DNA of 64,000 bases from Planctomycetota bacterium (lineage in GTDB: Bacteria > Planctomycetota > UBA1135 > GCA-002686595). The position numbers were made by a program, and so were the translations under genes. The stretch spans positions 1 to 64,000 of the forward strand of contig JAJDEV010000276.1 in the NCBI GenBank assembly GCA_029259605.1, read 5' to 3'. The notes under the pieces are model-generated. The model was not told where the DNA came from. It saw nothing but the letters and a program-made list of their open reading frames with translations, and ran no database searches. Within the stretch, counting starts at the first letter, position 1, and every line of letters begins with the position of its first letter. Below, piece by piece: positions 29,666-39,995 of this stretch.

Positions 29666-32600
29666 CTAGTTCGTCTCGAGTCTCGGGTTGGGGTTCGTGA
29701 GTTTGGCGAGGTAGGTCGTGCGCGGGCGCGTGCCGAGCTCCTCGAGCAGCCCGTAGTGGTGCGGCTGCGCGCGATCGGCGGAGACTCGGCTCGACGCGTC
29801 GTTGATGTCGCCGAACACGATGGCCTGGGTCGGGCACGCCTGCATGCACGCGCTCGTGACCTCGCCGTCGGCGATGACGCGCTCCTCCTTCTTGGCCGTG
29901 ATGCGCACCTGGTTGATGCGCTGCACGCAGTACGTGCACTTCTCCATGACGCCACGCGCTCGCACGGTGACGTCCGGGTTGTTCGCGAGCTTGAGCGACT
30001 CGGTCTCGTAGTCCGAGTACTTGAAGAAGTTGAAGCGCCGCACCTTGTACGGGCAGTTGTTCGAGCAGTAGCGCGTGCCGACGCAACGGTTGTAGACCAT
30101 CTCGTTCAGGCCTTCGTCGCTGTGCGTCGTCGCGCCGACCGGGCAGACCACTTCGCACGGCGCGTTCTCGCAGTGCATGCACGGCACGGGTTGGTGCAGC
30201 GCGCGCGTTCCCGCCGGATGCTCGTCGTAGTAGCGGTCGATGCGGATCCAGTGCAGCTCGCGACCGCGCGCCACCTCTTCCTTGCCGACGATCGGGATGT
30301 TGTTCTCCGACTGGCAGGCGACCATGCACGCGTTGCAACCGATGCACGCGTTGAGGTCGATCACCATGCCCCACGCGTACCCGTTGTACGGGTGGTCGGG
30401 GTACATCGAGAGGTCGGAGACGTCGTGGTCGTGCGCGTTCGTTTCGTGCGGATCGACGCGGAAGCGATCGAAGGTCGTGACGCGGACGGGCTCGCGCCCC
30501 TCCATGTTGCTGTGATCCTGGACGTTCGCGAGCGCGGCCGTGCGCCCGGTGCGCGACAGGCTCGCCCCGTCCACGCTCCACGCCGCGTCGACCGTGCGCA
30601 GGCGATACGCGTCGAAGCCGACGTTCGAGCCAAGCTGTCCCGCGCTCGTGCGCCCGTACCCGAGGTGCAGCGTGACCGCATCGTCGGCGTGACCCGGCGT
30701 GATCCACACCGGCGCCTCGACGCGTCGCTCGCCGGCCCGCACCTCGACCACGTCGCCCGAGTCCAAGCCCTCGGCCTTCGCGGTGGCCGGCGAAACGAGC
30801 GCGGCGTTTTCCCACGTCAGGCGCGTGAGCGGGCGCGGCGTCTCCTGCAGCCAACCGTTGTTCACGAAGCGCCCGTCGAACGCGCTCGCGTCCGGACGGA
30901 GCACGACCTCGAGGCCGGTGCGCGCGACGTAGGCGCCGAGCTTGCCCGCGCCGGGTGCGAGCGTGAGCGCGTCGCTCGTCGTTCCGGCGATGATGCCGTC
31001 GTGCAGCGCCGTCTCCCACGCGCGCTCGAACGCGTCGTCGTCGAGCGCGAGCGCGCGCTTCCAATGCGCGCGCACGAGGTCGTGAGCCTTCGCGCTCGTA
31101 TCGCCATCGACCACGGCGAGCAGCTCGTGCGCGGACTTCCCGCCGTAGAGCGGCGCGATCAGGGGCTGGACGATGGACGCGGTGCCGTCGAAGGCGCGCG
31201 CGTCGCTCCAGCTCTCGAGCGCGTGCGCCTCGGGAATGTGCCAGTGGCACAGCCGCGACGTCTCGTCGACGTGCGAGGAGAGGTGCACGCGGAACGGGAC
31301 GGTGCGCAACGCGGCGTCGAACTCGAGGTTGGCCGGCGCGTCGTACACCGGGTTACCGCCGAGCATGAGCAGCGTGGTGACGCGCGTGTTGCGGATGTCG
31401 TCGACGAGCACGGAGATCGACTCGGCGTCGGAGGTCTCGCGTGCGGTGACGGACTCGATGTAGTCGACCGTCTTTCCGACGTTCCGCAGCGCGTCGTTGA
31501 TCCGATGAGTGAGCGCGTGCACCGCGGGCGTCTGCCATTCGCCGGCGACGACCAAGCCCGCGCCCGCATTGTCGCGCAGGTCGCGCGCCACTTCGTCCGC
31601 GAGCACGCGCAACTCGTCGCCGACTTCGGGCGCGTCGACCGACACGCCGAGGCGATGCGCGAGAACGCGCGTGAAGGCCTCGACCAGCGACGGCTTGACG
31701 GCCAGCCGGTGGTCCGCCATCGAGCCCGTCAGCGTGACCGAGCTCTCGACCGCGTACAGCCGGTTCATCGGCGTCGCGTTTCCGCCGACCGAGCGCGCCT
31801 TGCGCGCCGCCGCGAAGTTACGCGCGTAGCGCACGCCGCCGCTGCCCGCGGCGAGGAACTCCGCGTCGAGCGAGACCACGACACGCGCCTTGTCGAACGC
31901 GTAGCGGGGCTCGACGTCGCGCCCGAAGACGCTCTGCGCGCCGGCGCGCGAGTGGTCGCGGTGGACCGGCGACCAGTGGTGGATCGCCATCGACGGGAAG
32001 CGCGCGACGAGCGCCGCGAGCTGCGCACGCTGTGTCGGCGACGTCGAATCCGTGGCGAGGATCGCGAGCCCTTCGCCGCGCGTCGCTTCCATGCCGTCGA
32101 GGCGACTCGACAGCTCGGTGAGGAACGCGTCCCAGGTCGAGATCTGTCCCGCGCGCAGGATCGAGTGCGAGCGATCGGGGTCGTACAAGCCGAGCACCGC
32201 CGCCTGCGCGAGTCCGTCCGTCGCGCCGAGGCTCGCCGGGTGATCCGGGTTGCCCTCGATCTTGGTCGGCCGACCCATGTGGCTCTCGACCAGCACGCCG
32301 ATCACGTCGGAGCCCGTGCACAGCGACGTCGCGAAGTAGCGCGGTTTGCCGGGGATCAGCGCTTCGGGCGACTTCGCGAAGGGAACGATGCGCTCGTCGG
32401 GTTGCCGCGTGCACGCGCCGAGGCCGGCGACGGCGAGCGATGCGCCCATGCTGCGCAGGAAATCGCGCCGGCCGAGCGCGGTTCCGAGCCGCGGCAGTTG
32501 CGACGGGAACCAGCGCGTGAGGAAGGCGCGGAACGGCGCCGTGTCGGCCAGTTGTTCGAGCTTGCGCCAGAACGCCGGCCCGTGGACGGTCGCGAGCTCC

Positions 32601-32713
32601 TCGCGGATCGCGCGCACCTCGGCCTCGCTCACCTCCGGAACGGACGCGAGGTCGATCGCGGGCGCTTCGACGTGTTCCGGCGCGAGCTCGAGCAGGTGGT
32701 CGTGTCGGCTCAT
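29666..32713 (-). CDS. actB: Alternative complex III subunit ActB (iron-sulfur)
   Basis: 1015 residues. A twin-arginine-like motif (GRRDFLRSMG, about 77-86) precedes a hydrophobic stretch. The long middle domain resembles a molybdopterin oxidoreductase without cofactor. The C-terminal domain has four cysteine groups: CIGCNACMVAC, CMHCENAPCEVVC, CVGTRYCSNNC and CTYC..CMQAC, the pattern for three [4Fe-4S] and one [3Fe-4S] cluster in ACIII. It carries electrons from the ActC quinol site to ActA. The ATG at 32713 is preferred over 32722 because it overlaps the actA stop (ATGA). Confidence 0.94.
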   Translation of the reverse strand: MSRHDHLLELAPEHVEAPAIDLASVPEVSEAEVRAIREELATVHGPAFWRKLEQLADTAPFRAFLTRWFPSQLPRLGTALGRRDFLRSMGASLAVAGLGACTRQPDERIVPFAKSPEALIPGKPRYFATSLCTGSDVIGVLVESHMGRPTKIEGNPDHPASLGATDGLAQAAVLGLYDPDRSHSILRAGQISTWDAFLTELSSRLDGMEATRGEGLAILATDSTSPTQRAQLAALVARFPSMAIHHWSPVHRDHSRAGAQSVFGRDVEPRYAFDKARVVVSLDAEFLAAGSGGVRYARNFAAARKARSVGGNATPMNRLYAVESSVTLTGSMADHRLAVKPSLVEAFTRVLAHRLGVSVDAPEVGDELRVLADEVARDLRDNAGAGLVVAGEWQTPAVHALTHRINDALRNVGKTVDYIESVTARETSDAESISVLVDDIRNTRVTTLLMLGGNPVYDAPANLEFDAALRTVPFRVHLSSHVDETSRLCHWHIPEAHALESWSDARAFDGTASIVQPLIAPLYGGKSAHELLAVVDGDTSAKAHDLVRAHWKRALALDDDAFERAWETALHDGIIAGTTSDALTLAPGAGKLGAYVARTGLEVVLRPDASAFDGRFVNNGWLQETPRPLTRLTWENAALVSPATAKAEGLDSGDVVEVRAGERRVEAPVWITPGHADDAVTLHLGYGRTSAGQLGSNVGFDAYRLRTVDAAWSVDGASLSRTGRTAALANVQDHSNMEGREPVRVTTFDRFRVDPHETNAHDHDVSDLSMYPDHPYNGYAWGMVIDLNACIGCNACMVACQSENNIPIVGKEEVARGRELHWIRIDRYYDEHPAGTRALHQPVPCMHCENAPCEVVCPVGATTHSDEGLNEMVYNRCVGTRYCSNNCPYKVRRFNFFKYSDYETESLKLANNPDVTVRARGVMEKCTYCVQRINQVRITAKKEERVIADGEVTSACMQACPTQAIVFGDINDASSRVSADRAQPHHYGLLEELGTRPRTTYLAKLTNPNPRLETN

Positions 32714-33360
32714 CGGTGGCACACCGAGCAGTTCGTCATGCTCTCCAGGTGATAGCGCTCGGCGAGTTCCGCGCGCTCCTCGGCCGACACGTCATCCGGC
32801 CGCCACTCGGTGGAGAACACGTCCGCGCGATCGCGAACGAACACCTCCGGGTCGCGGTGACACGACAGGCACCAGTCCATGTTCAGCGTGTTCTCGCGCC
32901 ACGTGAGCGGCATCTCGTCGACCTGTCCGTGACAGGTCGTGCAGCCGATGCCCTTCGACACGTGGATCGAGTGATCGAAGTACGCGAAGTCCGGCAGGTC
33001 GTGCACGCGCACCCACTCGACCGGCGCGTCGGTGCGATAGCTCTCGCGGATCTTCTCGAGCATCGGCGCGTCCTTCCAAACGAGCGAGTGGCAACCCATG
33101 CACGTCTTCGTCGGGGGAATACCGGCGAAGGCCGACTCCTCGACGCTCGTGTGACAGAAGCGGCAGTCGATGCCGAGCCCGGCGACGTGGTGCTTGTGGC
33201 TGAACGGCACCGGCTGTTCGCGCGCGACGTTGACCTGCGTGTTGTAGGGCGAACGCAGCAGCCTGTCCCAACCCCAAACGGCCGCACCCAAGAAGAACAC
33301 GGCGCCGAAGATCGAGACCCTCGAGAGCGTGTTGAAGCTGGGGTGGAAGATCTGAGCCAT
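32710..33360 (-). CDS. actA: Alternative complex III subunit ActA (pentaheme cytochrome c)
   Basis: 216 residues. One N-terminal membrane helix (about 14-31) anchors a periplasmic domain with five heme motifs: CRFCH (66-70), CMGCH (87-91), CTTCH (140-144), CLSCH (164-168) and CSVCH (211-215). Five hemes match the ActA of known ACIII complexes. It takes electrons from ActB and hands them to ActE or the oxidase. First gene of the 12-gene operon; the ATG at 33360 opens the family's FHPSFNTLSR N-terminus. Confidence 0.95.
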   Translation of the reverse strand: MAQIFHPSFNTLSRVSIFGAVFFLGAAVWGWDRLLRSPYNTQVNVAREQPVPFSHKHHVAGLGIDCRFCHTSVEESAFAGIPPTKTCMGCHSLVWKDAPMLEKIRESYRTDAPVEWVRVHDLPDFAYFDHSIHVSKGIGCTTCHGQVDEMPLTWRENTLNMDWCLSCHRDPEVFVRDRADVFSTEWRPDDVSAEERAELAERYHLESMTNCSVCHR

Positions 33361-33785
33361 GGAACCGAGCGAGGTCTGGCGCGGACCTCGCGGAGCGGCG
33401 TGAGTCAGGGGGAGCCGGGGTCCACGCGCGCGCAGCGCGCACGAATTGGGCAAAGAGAATAGAGCGCCCGCCCGAAGCCGTCCAGGATGCGCGACCGCAT
33501 GTCGCGCGCCCGACCCCGCACCGAGCACCGACCCCACGCGAGACTCTCGTCCGGCACCGCGTTTGCACCTGCGCCCGAGCCCTCCGCCGCACCCGCGCGG
33601 CAAGTCTCCGAACGCTCCATCGGCCGATCTGGAAGCCGCGGGGGCCGAAGCGTCCGCCCCTGGTCCGTTACGGGACATCGGTCAGGAACGCAGGAGGCAG
33701 CAGCGCGACGCGTTGCGCGTACGCCCAACGACGTACTCGCGAACTCCCCGACGCTCGAGCACCTCACCGCGCTCCCCAAGTCCCC
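33361..33785 (-). promoter_or_regulatory. Promoter and leader of the act/cta operon
   Basis: 425 bp without a gene, upstream of actA. A candidate promoter on the minus strand has -35 TGGACG (33484-33479), a 17-bp spacer and -10 TATTCT (33461-33456), about 95 bp before the ATG. The leader contains a perfect 8-bp hairpin with a 7-nt loop at 33369-33391 (GCGAGGTC/GACCTCGC), ending 8 nt before the start codon, where it could affect ribosome access. The promoter call is by eye. I see nothing else between 33485 and 33785. Confidence 0.4.
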
Positions 33786-34681: not shown

Positions 34682-34735
34682 CGGCGATACGGAGTCGCAC
34701 CAATCGGCGGCGATGGGTGCGACTCCGTATCGCCG
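34682..34735 (-). terminator. Strong hairpin ending the sulfur/MetE-like operon
   Basis: Perfect 20-bp stem (34682-34701 pairing with 34716-34735) around a 14-nt loop, starting 2 nt after the stop codon of the MetE-like gene. No long T-run follows on the minus strand. Its strength and position suggest it separates the operon from the glycosylase gene, whose ATG follows 14 nt later. Confidence 0.7.
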
Positions 34736-34737
34736 TT

Positions 34738-35886
34738 TCAGATGCGGCCGGAGCGCAGGAGCTCGGCCGCCTGCGCGAGCGCCTCGAGCTTCCGGACCGC
34801 GGTCGCCTCGGCGTTCATCGGGCGCACGGCGAAAGTCCCGAACCCGCAGTCGGGGTTCAGGTGGATGCGCTCGTGCCCGACGACCTCGGCCAGCGCGCGG
34901 ACGCGGCGCGCGATGGCCTCGGGGTCCTCGACCTCGTCCGTCCGCGGATTGACGACGCCGAAGCCGACGTGCGAGCCGGGGGGGAGTCCCGCGAGCAGCG
35001 CCGGATCGCCGGCGCGCTCGGTCGCGTACTCGAGGACGAACTGGTCGACGTGCATGCGCGCGAAGTGGGGGATCAGCTCGTCGTACGAACCGGACAGCAG
35101 CACGCCCTCGTCGCGGCTCCAGTTGCCGCGGCAAACGTGCAGCGCCTTGAGCGGACCCTCGACGCCGTCGACGACGCGGTTGATGAGCTCGACGGCGAGC
35201 TCGAGTTCGCCCTCGGGATCGGCGCTCGCCGCGAGCGCGGCGCACATGAACGTGTGCGTCGAGGACTTGCCCGCGAAGACGAGCTCGGTGAGCACGGGCT
35301 CGTCGAACTGCACGACGTCGCAGCCTTCCGCGGCGAGCGCGATCAGCTCGTCGCGCAGGATGCGCACGACGTCGTCGGCCAGCTTCTCGCGCGTCGGATA
35401 GGCGCCCTCGGACAGCGCCTTCACCCACGACGAGCGCACGAGCAGGTACGGCCCCGGCAGCGTCATCTTGATCGCGCGATCGGTGTGCTGCTTCAGAAAG
35501 CGATAGTCGTCGAGCACGAGCGGCGTGCGCGCGCGCAACGGCCCGACCGCGACGTTGTTGCGCATCGCGTAGGCGGGCACGTCGAGCGTTTGCAACAGCC
35601 CCTCGAACGCGGCCTTGTCCTCGACGTGCTCGAGCAGGTCGGCCATCGACATCTGCTCGAAGCCTTCGACGCGACCGGAGAGGAACGAGCAGAAGTTGTC
35701 CCGGCGTTGCTCGCCGTCCGAGACGATGTCGACGCCGGCGCGTTCCTGCGCGCGCAACGCGGCGAGGCACGCCGCATCCTCTTGTTCCTTCAGGTCGGCC
35801 GCGCGCCGCTTCGTCGCGAGCAACAGGCCCTCGGGCCGCGGCCAGCTGCCGACGGTCGTGACGGGAAAGGCGGGATAGGAGGTCAT
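34738..35886 (-). CDS. MetE-like cobalamin-independent thiol methyltransferase (short form)
   Basis: 382 residues, about half of canonical MetE and equivalent to its C-terminal catalytic barrel. The zinc site is intact: His250 and Cys252 (HVCRGNW), Glu286 (FVLEY) and Cys347 (NPDCGFGT). It starts like the family (FPVTTVGSWPRP) and has FDEPVLTE. Short members either methylate homocysteine with donors other than folylpolyglutamate, or act on other thiols, as epoxyalkane:coenzyme M transferase does. GAAAGGA lies upstream and its ATG overlaps the stop of the TusA-OsmC gene. Being last in a run of sulfur-carrier genes suggests that a thiol or persulfide is its substrate, which is inference. Confidence 0.85.
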   Translation of the reverse strand: MTSYPAFPVTTVGSWPRPEGLLLATKRRAADLKEQEDAACLAALRAQERAGVDIVSDGEQRRDNFCSFLSGRVEGFEQMSMADLLEHVEDKAAFEGLLQTLDVPAYAMRNNVAVGPLRARTPLVLDDYRFLKQHTDRAIKMTLPGPYLLVRSSWVKALSEGAYPTREKLADDVVRILRDELIALAAEGCDVVQFDEPVLTELVFAGKSSTHTFMCAALAASADPEGELELAVELINRVVDGVEGPLKALHVCRGNWSRDEGVLLSGSYDELIPHFARMHVDQFVLEYATERAGDPALLAGLPPGSHVGFGVVNPRTDEVEDPEAIARRVRALAEVVGHERIHLNPDCGFGTFAVRPMNAEATAVRKLEALAQAAELLRSGRI

Positions 35887-36614
35887 AGGGTCTTCCTTTC
35901 GATGCGGATCGGCACTTCGCGTCCGAGGGTGTGGCGAACGGGCGAGCGCGCGAACGTCTCGCGCCACAGCTCTTCGAGCACGTCGTCGTCGGCGTCCGCG
36001 TCGATGAAGAGGCTGCCTTCGACCTGCGAGACGCCGGGATGCCCGTCGTCCTCCACGCCGAGGAACACGAGCAGGTTGTCGATGCGCGCCTTCAGCGACA
36101 CCTCGAGATCGAACACTTCGATCGAGCGCTTCGACGCGCGCCAACGCAGCCCGACGGCGAGGCAACCGGCGAGCGCCGCGAGCACGTACTCGACCGCGGA
36201 CGGCGCCGCGTCCTCGGTGTCGAGGCTGGCCGGTTGGCCGATCGCGAAGGCGTGGTTGCGCACGTACGCGCGTGCTTGCATCGCTTCGGTCGAGCGCACG
36301 CGCACGGTCCAAACGTGGTCGCGCGTGCGCGCGAGGTCCGCGCCGAGGTCGGCGTCCGCGCCCTTCTTCTTCACGAAGTACGACGTCGATCCACCGTCCC
36401 CCGGCGTGTCGGCGACGAGCGCGTGGCCGACCAGCCGGCACCAGGCTGGCAGGTCGACCGCGACGCTCGACTCGCGACTCCGCACCTCGAGCACGCCGCC
36501 GTTCGCGAGCGGTTGCATCGCGCGGCGAATGATCAGGAGCAGTCCGCTCCCGCAATCGAGGTCGCCGCCGTCGCAAACGGCATCCGGCGTACCGGCGAAG
36601 CGCTCGTCTACCAT
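35883..36614 (-). CDS. TusA-like/OsmC-like fusion protein
   Basis: 243 residues. The N-terminal ~75 residues are TusA-like, with the active cysteine in LDCGSG (Cys21), where TusA proper has CP, and DLPAWCRLVGH at the end. The C-terminal ~140 residues are OsmC-like (SAVEYVLAALAGCLAVGL). The first OsmC cysteine is present (Cys151) but the second is Ser (SPVRHTL instead of CPV), so normal two-cysteine peroxidase chemistry is unlikely. A role in handling protein persulfides is plausible. The start at 36614 follows the DsrE-like stop by 4 bp. Confidence 0.85.
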   Translation of the reverse strand: MVDERFAGTPDAVCDGGDLDCGSGLLLIIRRAMQPLANGGVLEVRSRESSVAVDLPAWCRLVGHALVADTPGDGGSTSYFVKKKGADADLGADLARTRDHVWTVRVRSTEAMQARAYVRNHAFAIGQPASLDTEDAAPSAVEYVLAALAGCLAVGLRWRASKRSIEVFDLEVSLKARIDNLLVFLGVEDDGHPGVSQVEGSLFIDADADDDVLEELWRETFARSPVRHTLGREVPIRIERKTL

Positions 36615-36618
36615 GCGG

Positions 36619-36981
36619 TCAGTAGCTGACGCAGGGCGCGCCTTCCGAGAGGAACTCGACCAGGCTCGCGCCGCCGACGATGCTCGCACCGGCGATCAGT
36701 TGGTTCTCGTCGAGCGCGCGCTTCTTGAAGCACGGTGCGCAGACCCAGATCTTGCCGCCGGCTTCGGCGAAATTGCTCATCAGTTCCGCGAGCGGCGCGA
36801 AGCCCGACTCGTGGACGTCGTCGGCGTAACCCGTTTGCGAGAGGCGCACACCTTCGACGCTGAGGAAGACGACCGTTTCCTTCTCGGACGCGACCGCCGC
36901 GTTGGCGACGACGAAGGCGACCGTGGCCTTGTCGGTGTCGTTCTTGGAGTACGTGAGGCTGATGCAGAATCGGTTGGTCAT
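36619..36981 (-). CDS. DsrE-like sulfur-relay protein
   Basis: 120 residues. Single DsrE/DsrF-like domain: a beta-strand opening (NRFCISLTYSKND), an ATVAFVVANAAVA helix, and the active-site-like VCAPCFKKR (Cys81 and Cys84) followed by an alpha/beta end (LIAGASIVGGASLVEFL). DsrE-type proteins form trimers or hexamers and pass persulfide sulfur to TusA-type carriers, two of which flank this gene. GAGGAA lies upstream of the ATG at 36981. Confidence 0.85.
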   Translation of the reverse strand: MTNRFCISLTYSKNDTDKATVAFVVANAAVASEKETVVFLSVEGVRLSQTGYADDVHESGFAPLAELMSNFAEAGGKIWVCAPCFKKRALDENQLIAGASIVGGASLVEFLSEGAPCVSY

Positions 36982-36999
36982 TGGATGGGTTCCTCGGGA

Positions 37000-37608
37000 T
37001 CAGTCGGCGCGCCGACGGATCCAGTAGTGGGGATGGCGTTCTCCGACGAGCACGTGTCGCGTGAGTCGGCACCAGCTCGGGAGATCGCGGGGGGCGGCCG
37101 GGTCGGTGGCTCGAACACAGAGGACCTCGCCCGGCGCGAGGCTCTGGAAACGTTTGCGGAGCTCGAGGACGAGGTCGCCACACGAGAGGTCGTGGGCATC
37201 GTACGTCGCGTCGACGACGAGTTCGGCCGGATCGAGCTCGAGCTCGTCGTCCTGCTCGTCATCCGGCGCATCGAAGTCGTCGTCGAGCATCGCGAGTTCC
37301 CTCGGAACGCGGTCTTCGGGCCAGATGGGCACCGCCGCAAGGCGACGGTCGGAGTGCACCCACCCGGCCCGAAAACACGCGAGACGACGGATGCGCGCGG
37401 CGCCCAGTCGCAGGAAGTCCGGCGTCGCTTGCCCGACTCCCCGCGCGAGGCAGGGCGCGCACCTCGGTGCGTCGCGAAAGCCGAGAGCCAAGCTGAGCAC
37501 GATCTCGTGTCCGATCAGGTCGAGGTCGCAGGACGCGCAGCTCGCGCCCCAACGCTCGTCGACCTCGCGCACGATCGCGTCGGCTTTCAGGCTCTCACGC
37601 TCGTCCAT
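37000..37608 (-). CDS. Zinc-finger-like protein with C-terminal TusA-like domain
   Basis: 202 residues. The N-terminal ~60 residues carry two CxxC pairs (Cys24/Cys27 and Cys50/Cys53) that could bind zinc. A central acidic linker (DDDFDAPDDEQDDELELD) follows. The C-terminal ~70 residues are TusA-like (YDAHDLSCGDLVLELRKRF..DLPSWCRLTRHVLVGE) with the active cysteine at 143. Here too CP is replaced by CG, as in the TusA-OsmC protein. It may carry sulfur while docking through the zinc module; no closer identity is known to me. It begins 3 bp after the transglutaminase-like gene's stop. Confidence 0.78.
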   Translation of the reverse strand: MDERESLKADAIVREVDERWGASCASCDLDLIGHEIVLSLALGFRDAPRCAPCLARGVGQATPDFLRLGAARIRRLACFRAGWVHSDRRLAAVPIWPEDRVPRELAMLDDDFDAPDDEQDDELELDPAELVVDATYDAHDLSCGDLVLELRKRFQSLAPGEVLCVRATDPAAPRDLPSWCRLTRHVLVGERHPHYWIRRRAD

Positions 37609-37611
37609 GGC

Positions 37612-38700
37612 TCACTGCACCTCGTGGAAGGTCAGCTTGCGCGTCCAGCCCGCCTTCTCTTTCAGCGGGACGCCATCGACTTCGACGTGCGCCTTCGGCA
37701 GCGCGTTGATCGGCCCGCTCGCTCCCGCGAGAACCAGGTCGCGACCGCGGTTCCACGTGACGCGACGCGCGTCGAGGTTGCCGAAGTAGTAGTCGACCAT
37801 CGCGGCGTCGGGTCCGGCGTAGCCGTCCGCGAGCGTGAGGCTGACCCCGCGGCGGTTGTCATCGTCGAGCGCGAAGTCGTCCACGAACACGTCGGCGACG
37901 GCGACGTCGAGCGGAATCCAACCGAGCTGCGGCGCCCAGAACTCGATCCAGCAGTGGTAGCTCTGATCCGCGTCCTCTCCCTCGAGCGGCCCCTTGAAGA
38001 ACGACCCGTACACCATGCGAGTCGGCAGTCCCGTCGCTTGCGCGGCGGCCGAATACAGGCTGTGGAAGTCGGTGCAGTTGCCCGTGCACTGCTCGAAGCA
38101 GTACACGCTGCTGCCGACGCCCGACGACTTCATCCGGTCGGGGAACTTGACCCAGTACTGGACGTGATCGAGCGTCCAGTCATAGAGCAGCCGCGCCTTC
38201 GCGACCGGGTTGTCGTTCCCGGCGACGGCTTCGCGAGCGGCCGCCGCGATCGGCGCCGTGGCGACGACGTTCGTGCTGCCGGTGAGGTACGGCGCGAACT
38301 TGGCCCGCTCCTTCGCCGTGAGCGGGCGCGTCGCGTTCGCATCGACGACGTTGAGCGCCTCATGGCGCTCGAGCTCGAAGTTGGTTTCGAGCACGATGCG
38401 CTTGCCCGCGGCATTCTTGGCATCGAGGTAGAGGAAGCGGTTGCCGGCTTCGTCGCGCACCTGCTCGGTCTTGACGACCGCGCCGTCGGGAACGTCGGTG
38501 CGAATGTCGAGCTGCTTCAGCTCCTGCAGCGCGTCGTTGTCGTCCGGCAACGCGAACCAGCCGTGCACCGACTGCGCGCCCGCGGGGACGTCGATCTCGA
38601 ATCGGTTCTGGGCCTGGAAGCGCCGCGTTTCGCCGTGCGGCGTCGCTGCGCACGAGGCGAGCAATGCGGCACCCGCGATGAGATAGATGGCTTGTTTCAT
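37612..38700 (-). CDS. Transglutaminase-like lipoprotein
   Basis: 362 residues. A lipoprotein signal ends at Cys17 (LLASC). The papain-like transglutaminase core has the triad Cys209 (GNCTDFHSLY), His249 (SYHCW) and Asp265 (IPLDV). Extra cysteines lie just before the active one (Cys201 and Cys205). Bacterial members cleave or crosslink amide bonds in the periplasm, often as proteases. Its position between a porin and sulfur-carrier genes is unusual. It may process a sulfur-containing peptide taken up through the porin, but this is speculation. Confidence 0.82.
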   Translation of the reverse strand: MKQAIYLIAGAALLASCAATPHGETRRFQAQNRFEIDVPAGAQSVHGWFALPDDNDALQELKQLDIRTDVPDGAVVKTEQVRDEAGNRFLYLDAKNAAGKRIVLETNFELERHEALNVVDANATRPLTAKERAKFAPYLTGSTNVVATAPIAAAAREAVAGNDNPVAKARLLYDWTLDHVQYWVKFPDRMKSSGVGSSVYCFEQCTGNCTDFHSLYSAAAQATGLPTRMVYGSFFKGPLEGEDADQSYHCWIEFWAPQLGWIPLDVAVADVFVDDFALDDDNRRGVSLTLADGYAGPDAAMVDYYFGNLDARRVTWNRGRDLVLAGASGPINALPKAHVEVDGVPLKEKAGWTRKLTFHEVQ

Positions 38701-38711
38701 GGTGTGATTCC

Positions 38712-39995
38712 TTAGAAGTAGAAGGCGATCCAGCCGACCACCCGATTCGCGTCGCCGTCCTCGAGGCCGACGTACTCGGTCGTCCAGTTCAGGTACTCGA
38801 AGCCGAAGCGCAGCGATCCGTACTGCCAGCGCGCCGCCGCGTACGGGACCGTGTTCTTCGAGAACGCGTTGGCCGCGAGGTCGTCGTCGTCCGGGTCGTC
38901 GAACGAGTAGCCCGCGTACAACGTGCAGTGGTCGGTCGCCTTGTAGGAGCCCTCGACCCAGCCGCCCTTGGACTCGATCTCGTCCATCGTTCCGAAGTTG
39001 ACGCCCTGCAGGATGCCGCCGCGCACGTCGCGCAGGTTCTCGCCCATGAAGTACTCGCCCTTGACGGCGACGGTGTTGCCCGAGATCGGGACCACGAAGT
39101 CCACGCCGACCGAGCTCGAGTCGAAGTCCTCCTCACCGACCGCCGCGCCGCCGCCGGCCGTGCCCGGATCGAAGCGCTCCTCCGAGTTGTGTGCCCAGAC
39201 GCCGAGCTGATAGGCGCCGCCCGCGTCGGTCTTGCCGTGGTAGCCGACGCGCGCGTGGACCATCGGGCGTCCCGAGTTCTCACCGCTGCGCAGGCCGCCG
39301 AGGACGGTTTGTCCGCCGACCGCGCCCGTGAGGCCGATCCCGAAGTCGGTGATGAGCTGTCCAGCACCGGCGGCCGTCGTGTTGCGCACCGTGAGCTGCG
39401 GACGACGATCCCCGGTGTTGCCTGCGCCCCACATCACGAGGTCGTTGTTCACGACCGGGTTGAGCGGCGAGATCGCGTCCCACGTCTGGCCGGCGAGCAG
39501 GCGCCAGTGGTCCCACGTGAGCGTGAGGTAGGCGAGCCGCATCCGCAGCGCGTTGCGCGAATCCGAATCGGGCAGACCGATGTTGTAGAAGTCGATCTCG
39601 ACCTTGCCTCCGAGGTCCGGATTGCCGAGTCCGTCGATCGTGCCGCCGTCGAACGTCAGGCCGAGTCGGGTGAGTCGGGCGGAGAGCGCGGCCTCGGAGT
39701 CGTTCTCGTCCGCGACCGTACCGGCCGGCACGCCGCTCGAGTCCTCGGAGCGAATGATGTACGGGATCTGCGGGTCGTTCGCCCGCGAGTCGTTGTACAT
39801 GGCGTCCAAGCGCAGGAAGCCGTACAGCTTGAACGTCGCGTCCGAGTTCAAGAGGTCGGCCCAGGTCAGGCCGTCGGTGGGAGCGTTGTCCGCTTGCGCG
39901 TTCGCCTGGTTGGCGCCGAGCGCGAGGGCCAGGCCCAAGGTCGCGACGCGGGCGCCGCGTGCGGCGCATCGAAGCAGGGTGGATTGGTTTTGCAT
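38712..39995 (-). CDS. Outer-membrane porin (DcaP-like)
   Basis: 427 residues with a signal peptide (cleavage near AQA, about residue 35). The mature chain is rich in amphipathic beta-strands ending in an aromatic residue (VVGWIAFYF), as expected for a barrel inserted by BAM. FKLYGFLRLDAMYND, LRMRLAYLTLTWDHWRLLAGQTWDAISP and the C-terminal YGSLRFGFEYLNWTTEYVG resemble DcaP-type porins. First gene of the operon that continues into the transglutaminase-like and sulfur-relay genes (gap 11 bp). The ATG at 39995 is chosen because it opens the signal peptide. Confidence 0.8.
   Translation of the reverse strand: MQNQSTLLRCAARGARVATLGLALALGANQANAQADNAPTDGLTWADLLNSDATFKLYGFLRLDAMYNDSRANDPQIPYIIRSEDSSGVPAGTVADENDSEAALSARLTRLGLTFDGGTIDGLGNPDLGGKVEIDFYNIGLPDSDSRNALRMRLAYLTLTWDHWRLLAGQTWDAISPLNPVVNNDLVMWGAGNTGDRRPQLTVRNTTAAGAGQLITDFGIGLTGAVGGQTVLGGLRSGENSGRPMVHARVGYHGKTDAGGAYQLGVWAHNSEERFDPGTAGGGAAVGEEDFDSSSVGVDFVVPISGNTVAVKGEYFMGENLRDVRGGILQGVNFGTMDEIESKGGWVEGSYKATDHCTLYAGYSFDDPDDDDLAANAFSKNTVPYAAARWQYGSLRFGFEYLNWTTEYVGLEDGDANRVVGWIAFYF

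Follow-up and report, generated by a model that had tools for sequence, protein, structure and literature searches.

In the Dsr and Hdr-like routes of sulfur oxidation, TusA and DsrE act in one pathway, likely as persulfide carriers. A similar pairing is encoded in the window, that is, the whole 64,000-nt stretch analysed here (positions 1 to 64,000 of the forward strand of contig JAJDEV010000276.1, assembly GCA_029259605.1, from a Planctomycetota bacterium), where an operon of six genes specifies two TusA-like domains, a DsrE-family protein and a MetE-like zinc enzyme. Papers on such TusA-DsrE relays include PMC6067878 and PMC7596348. The enzyme itself resembles the core methionine synthases MesA to MesD, or core-MetE (PMC7857596, PMC7005905), in its half-length catalytic barrel, its zinc ligands and its lack of the folate-binding half. 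It shares a superfamily with the Mlp (MtaA-like) UroD-superfamily methyltransferases of type 1 MGCs, for which methyl-selenium metabolism has been proposed and most genomes of which carry the selenocysteine (Sec) machinery (PMC10418091).

The six-gene unit is conserved and apparently undescribed. Judged from gene order and gene fusion, its two Cys-Gly TusA domains, CxPC-containing DsrE and MetE-fold zinc enzyme belong together. The operon is tentatively interpreted, at somewhat below an even chance, as one dedicated sulfur-handling system, in which a TusA/DsrE relay would exchange carrier-bound sulfur with a substrate at the zinc and at residue 215 (Cys or Sec) of the enzyme.

Organization of the operon

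The operon spans nt 39995-34738 of the reverse strand, in the order porin, lipoprotein, TusA1, DsrE, TusA-OsmC and MetE-like enzyme. Its six proteins are designated P0001 to P0006; L and G numbers denote the loci and genomes of the relatives that were read, and G000 is the window's own genome. The features are as follows.

38712..39995, reverse strand: DcaP-type outer-membrane porin (P0006), assigned with a profile of 20 relatives
37612..38700, reverse strand: transglutaminase-like lipoprotein (P0005), PF01841, with a lipobox LLASC recognised by eye
37000..37608, reverse strand: TusA1 (P0004), two N-terminal CxxC pairs (zinc-ribbon-like) and a TusA domain with LSCG
36619..36981, reverse strand: DsrE-family protein (P0003), PF02635, with Cys81-x-Pro-Cys84
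35883..36614, reverse strand: TusA2-OsmC fusion (P0002), with an LDCG motif and an OsmC domain
34738..35886, reverse strand: MetE-like zinc enzyme (P0001), 382 aa, PF01717, with H250, C252, E286, C347 and Cys215
35242..35244, reverse strand: codon of Cys215 in the MetE-like gene, TGC in the window and TGA at the equivalent position in seven relatives
34682..34735, reverse strand: hairpin at the operon end, 25-nt arms, no U-run

Five of the six proteins were recognised by Pfam, the exception being the porin. Scores were 42 bits for TusA1 (PF01206), 59 bits for DsrE (PF02635), 49 bits for the OsmC half of P0002, 68 bits for the transglutaminase core of the lipoprotein (PF01841) and 99 bits, against a cut-off of 21, for the MetE C-terminal domain Meth_synt_2 (PF01717) of P0001. 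TusA2 scored 25 bits with PF01206, slightly under the cut-off of 28.6; it and TusA1 were the only TusA matches in the window's genome. The N-terminal, folate-binding half of MetE (PF08267) was matched by P0001 with 17.3 bits, below the cut-off of 27, and its place is taken by TusA in the fused forms described below.

The sequence-only reading of this DNA had reported six co-directional genes with gaps of 11, 3, 18, 4 and -4 bp, Cys-Gly in place of Cys-Pro in both TusA-like domains (LSCG and LDCG), Ser at the second Cys position of OsmC and an intact His-Cys-Glu-Cys site in the half-length MetE-like enzyme. All the open reading frames and gaps were verified, both TusA motifs are present, the OsmC half reads ARSPVRHTL, and the zinc ligands H250, C252, E286 and C347 are invariant among the relatives collected in profile A1 (see below) and kept elsewhere. 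The 20-bp-stem hairpin that it had placed at the operon end also exists, but with longer arms of 25 nt (34682-34706 and 34711-34735), which are 96% complementary (-47.7 kcal/mol, z -8.7) and are not followed by a U-run.

Conservation, synteny and gene fusion

Relatives were sought in 151 genomes of the window's class and 392 genomes of its phylum. TusA1 matched 47 of the class genomes, and 40 regions were fetched; with the window counted in, DsrE was present in 40 loci, beside a TusA and together with a MetE-like gene unless the locus was truncated or, like L069, odd. A1, a profile built from 21 MetE-like proteins, was run on the 392 phylum genomes and gave 50 matches above the threshold of 520 bits, which came from many families; 40 further loci were read. 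The TusA1-DsrE-TusA2-MetE core was syntenic in 66 loci phylum-wide, a figure that is no count of independent events since the loci are related by descent. Gene order varied: TusA1 followed MetE in several Sec-type loci, and the porin and lipoprotein genes lay within the module in L054.

Two forms of the module were distinguished. In 29 of the 66 loci TusA2 forms the N-terminal part of one polypeptide with the MetE-like enzyme and OsmC is absent; the other 37 encode TusA-OsmC and, separately, MetE. The fused form corresponds approximately to one clade on the enzyme tree, the sole exception, L170, being cut by a contig end. The Cys of TusA was retained in about 95% of relatives, the next residue being Gly in about 94%, and C81 and C84 of the DsrE CxPC motif were kept in 72/72 sequences. 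In-frame TGA occurred inside TusA matches of G138, G080 and G039; UGA at the active-site Cys of TusA was not found in the loci read. At the first OsmC Cys position, Cys was found in 22, Asp in 17 and Ala in 7 of 46 sequences, a composition at odds with the two catalytic Cys of OsmC/Ohr peroxidases. OsmC, missing from the fused forms, is dispensable, and with Asp or Ala so frequent at its first Cys position a redox or peroxidase role is unlikely.

The earlier proposal that the genes form one unit thus held: in relatives they are not scattered, the core recurs in the 66 loci, and 29 of these encode TusA2 and MetE as a single polypeptide. Its wider interpretation as a sulfur pathway fared unevenly, the gene unit and the link to porin and lipoprotein being borne out and OsmC proving a part that can be missing. 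Beyond porin and lipoprotein, no extra conserved flanking partners were found in most clades, many apparent flank clusters being antisense frames at high GC, and no relatives were found in viral contigs. Loci L152-L156 are from low-GC (0.42-0.47) genomes of one genus, possibly anammox bacteria; they have TusA-DsrE-TusA/OsmC-MetE without porin or lipoprotein, L155 showing only MetE.

Residue 215 of the MetE-like enzyme

A further residue, Cys215, had been overlooked in the sequence-only reading. Phe-Met-Cys at positions 213-215 is invariant apart from Sec for Cys: FM[C/U] accompanied intact zinc ligands in 36 sequences from the class and 38 from the phylum. FMC did not occur in the MetE-like proteins read from outside the module. 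Pairwise alignment placed Cys215 approximately at the Trp following the DEP strand of full-length MetE, which we take to be the folate-stacking residue of the methyl-folate site.

The codon of Cys215 is replaced by UGA in seven genomes, the motif reading FMUATLA in L056, L058, L063, L085 and L189 and FMUGVLA in L157 and L158, and the enzyme tree requires two Cys/Sec changes. SelA was found in 7/7 of these genomes, G200 and G325 included. The other five were searched for tRNA-Sec, which was strong in G137, G134, G116 and G080 and was not found in G087. The five loci of the first type have a SECIS-like hairpin with a 7-bp stem starting 14 nt past the first base of the UGA, with a loop of CGTGAT or CGTGAC, and the stem of L085 contains a compensatory change from C-G to A-U; a downstream hairpin was not clear in L157 and L158. 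Third codon positions were more alike just after the UGA (0.75) than elsewhere in the gene (0.65 and 0.61). The interchange of Cys and Sec, the presence of SelA and the hairpin with its compensatory pair suggest a reactive thiol or selenol at position 215, and these MetE-like relatives are predicted to be a selenoprotein family. A 2026 review of prokaryotic selenoproteins includes DsrE, OsmC and arsenite methyltransferase and has no entry for methionine synthase or PF01717 (PMC13188914). A link between the module and the Sec trait was considered and dropped as non-specific, tRNA-Sec being found in 136 of the 151 class genomes.

A separate MetE-like subfamily outside the module has an in-frame UGA at a zinc-ligand Cys (HL[UGA]RGN) in L190 (G304:C185:5467-6549), L217 (G662) and L218 (G582). 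These three genomes, from two phyla, all possess SelA, and the sister sequences L191 and L219 read HLCRGN; Sec is a possible zinc ligand in this subfamily.

Porin and lipoprotein

P0006 alone had no Pfam match. The profile of its 20 relatives matched DcaP (PDB 6eus) at an E value of 2e-17, and PF19577 was matched by 10 of the 20. The Cys-His-Asp triad of the lipoprotein (C209, H249 and D265) was invariant in 22 sequences. Lipoprotein genes, mostly accompanied by the porin gene, were present in 26 of the 66 module loci. On the enzyme tree these fall in the two main clades, fused and OsmC; the pair is therefore probably ancestral and often lost. Strong lipoprotein orthologs (>470 bits) were encoded by 9 of the 151 class genomes, all of which bear the module, in 8 cases adjacent to it. 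An overlap of this extent with the 41 module genomes would arise by chance with a probability of about 4e-6, relatedness being uncorrected, and the suggested tie of porin and transglutaminase-like lipoprotein to the module is thereby upheld. Elsewhere in the window, genes at 29666-33678 of the reverse strand resemble, by eye only, those of alternative complex III ActA (with CxxCH haem motifs) and ActB.

Related gene sets in other phyla

TusA-like domains also accompany other catalysts. A Cys-Gly TusA and a DsrE precede a fusion of TusA with a radical S-adenosylmethionine (SAM) protein of the Rv1681 family in L034 (Nocardioidaceae), a TusA precedes the same kind of fusion in L033 (Sinomonas), and an Rv1681-type radical SAM gene occurs with TusA and DsrE in L036 (Anaerolineales). 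Fusions of a diiron AurF-like protein with a TusA-like domain, which lacks the Cys in the copies read, were seen in Mycobacterium, Myxococcales, Kofleriaceae and a number of genomes from the window's phylum; next to them lie genes for an acyl-CoA dehydrogenase of Rv1679 type and a binding protein of Rv1680 type. The triad of Rv1679-type, Rv1680-type (substrate-binding-protein-like) and TusA-like-diiron genes was conserved in several phyla (L037, L039-L042, L192, L193 and L195-L199).

The same partners were found with the MetE-like gene, which stands with OsmC, Rv1680-type and Rv1679-type genes in L159-L164, L179 and L213 of the window's phylum and in L211 and L212 of the Anaerolineales phylum; in L157 the relay module and the Rv1679/Rv1680-type arrangement lie side by side. 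Of the 392 phylum genomes, 29 have Rv1680-type genes; 17 of these belong to the 51 that carry a MetE-like gene (relatedness uncorrected), and outside family f30 the overlap was 8/17 (p about 1e-4). The Rv1680-type protein also matches TIGR04553, a putative selenate-binding family. Other neighbours include a methionine-gamma-lyase-like gene beside the MetE-like gene in L160 and, upstream of it in L210, genes for an SsuA-type sulfonate-binding protein and an ABC transporter. All matches to the NCBIfam models of Rv1679 to Rv1681 were below cut-off and thus indicate family resemblance, not identity.

A broader reading, given close to an even chance, is that of a new class of Cys/Sec-dependent MetE-fold zinc enzymes using sulfur (or selenium) from a tethered TusA. 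This class would be one branch of a cross-phylum set that combines TusA with interchangeable catalysts (MetE, Rv1681-family radical SAM or diiron AurF-like proteins) and shares Rv1679/Rv1680-type partners, including Rv1679-Rv1681 of M. tuberculosis.

Two further loci had unusual contents. A gene with a KMSKS motif that resembles class I aminoacyl-tRNA synthetases, with no NCBIfam match, lies directly upstream of the MetE-like gene in L210 (7483-8442). Another locus, L035:6740-8838 (Anaerolineales), encodes OsmC, an ArsM-family methyltransferase with UGA at CIAG, a Cys-containing TusA and DsrE.

Proposed pathway and alternative explanations

An organic sulfur compound would most likely enter through the DcaP porin and be freed by the periplasmic transglutaminase-like lipoprotein. 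DsrE and TusA1 may pass sulfur to or from TusA2 as Cys-persulfide, and TusA2, in many relatives tethered at the enzyme N-terminus in the place of the folate-binding half of full-length MetE, would dock on the MetE-like barrel and present its Cys-bound sulfur. Cys/Sec215 would exchange sulfane sulfur with TusA2, the zinc would bind and activate the sulfur of a (homo)cysteine-like substrate, and the enzyme would make or break the bond between substrate and carried sulfur, resulting in assembly or release. Such a dedicated system is favoured because of the synteny in 66 loci with its 29 fusions, the presence of DsrE in 40/40 class loci and the invariant FM[C/U]; because of the retention of the TusA Cys (about 95%) and the DsrE CxPC (100%), the tie of porin and lipoprotein to the module and the near universality of MetH; and because MetE-like genes neighbour methionine-gamma-lyase-like (L160), Rv1680-type, Rv1679-type and SsuA-type (L210) genes.

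Several points weigh against it. Its support is drawn from sequence and conservation, from which the chemistry has been deduced, and TusA domains without Cys-Pro do not assure persulfide carriage. No TusA or DsrE was seen near the MetE-like gene in the loci with OsmC, binding-protein and acyl-CoA dehydrogenase genes (L159-L164, L179 and L211-L213), where the enzyme may thus act without a relay. The window operon has no recognisable methyl donor or dedicated inner-membrane importer, and AlphaFold2 run on P0001 without an alignment yielded no usable model (mean pLDDT 38.8).

The strongest of the rival explanations, still an unlikely one, is methyl-sulfur or methyl-selenium metabolism, with the MetE-like enzyme methylating or demethylating a small thiol, selenide or thioether and TusA/DsrE taking up or supplying bare sulfur or selenium. 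Mlp enzymes of the same UroD/MetE superfamily carry out methylcobalamin:selenide methyl transfer and have been proposed to demethylate methyl-selenium compounds (PMC10418091), and the methionine-gamma-lyase-like neighbour, the TIGR04553 match of the Rv1680-type protein, the use of Sec at position 215 of the MetE-like enzyme, and the ArsM-family gene with its UGA in L035 are all in line with such a role. However, the conserved neighbours include no recognisable corrinoid protein, no methyl acceptor was identified, and a Sec machinery that is nearly universal in the class gives no specific tie to selenium. Processing or detoxification of organometals or organometalloids (methylated arsenic, mercury) with thiol or selenol carriers is considerably less probable: the ArsM-family methyltransferase of L035 and the weak match of the L210 binding protein to SaoX, from a proposed selenocysteine-assisted organometal system, are weak links from single loci, and neither arsenic nor mercury genes showed up as conserved neighbours, a family-level search for them not having been made.

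An ordinary core methionine synthase of the MesA-D type, for which TusA and DsrE merely supply the sulfide of homocysteine, is improbable, falling between these two. Its PF01717 domain and zinc ligands are intact, and Ser14, Glu59 and Asp195, which we take to be the homocysteine-binding positions of MetE, are invariant. Yet the best score of P0001 was 156 bits against a curated methionine synthase cut-off of 406, no curated model being reached, and other A1 members match the same models at similar E values; residue 215 as Cys or Sec was not seen in other MetE-like proteins read; and occurrence is patchy (about 50 of the 392 phylum genomes). The MetH activation domain was found in 137 of the 151 class genomes, including the window's, so the MetE-like enzyme is probably not the cell's methionine synthase, and near-universal MetH together with the invariant Cys/Sec215 makes it unlikely that it acts alone as an ordinary one. 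Least probable by far is that TusA and DsrE work in tRNA thiolation or in the assembly of cofactors, the roles for which their families are best known, beside an unrelated MetE-like gene; this is strongly disfavoured by the phylum-wide synteny and the direct TusA-MetE fusion.

Comparison with known systems

If the proposed system is correct, it would directly connect the methionine synthase fold with a relay of sulfur carriers, a connection of which no description was found, and would add a selenoprotein family with Sec as key residue of a MetE-like enzyme; the TusA2-MetE fusions make the pathway testable on one polypeptide. Nothing relevant on a Sec-containing MetE or on TusA-DsrE with methionine synthase was found in the searched literature, which mostly leaves subscription papers uncovered, and the same literature gave no functional work on the Rv1679-Rv1681 set.

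Relative to the Dsr and Hdr-like relays, the TusA domains have Cys-Gly, not Cys-Pro, and the relay is coupled to an enzyme of MetE fold; the conserved neighbours showed no recognisable DsrAB or Hdr-like genes, the genomes as a whole not having been searched for them. Unlike MesA-MesD and core-MetE, the enzyme falls below the curated cut-offs, has the invariant Cys/Sec215 and a carrier domain in place of the folate half, and occurs where MetH is nearly always present. Corrinoid proteins are encoded by the type 1 MGCs of Mlp but were not recognised here, and PMC10418091 makes no mention of TusA or DsrE. The arsenite methyltransferase selenoproteins (NF041536, NF041537 and NF047649) have a member in L035, with UGA at the Cys of CIAG and a position between OsmC and TusA-DsrE, but theirs is a SAM-dependent methyltransferase fold, not that of MetE. 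Rv1679-Rv1680-Rv1681 of M. tuberculosis (NF049984, NF049985 and NF049973) come close in that the Rv1681-type protein has a TusA-like N-terminus and, in L034 and L036, is partnered by Cys-Gly TusA and DsrE, whereas the catalytic partner there is a radical SAM (or diiron) protein, not MetE, and the sequences here lie below the NCBIfam cut-offs. The partners shared with this set provide a comparative handle on Rv1679-Rv1681.

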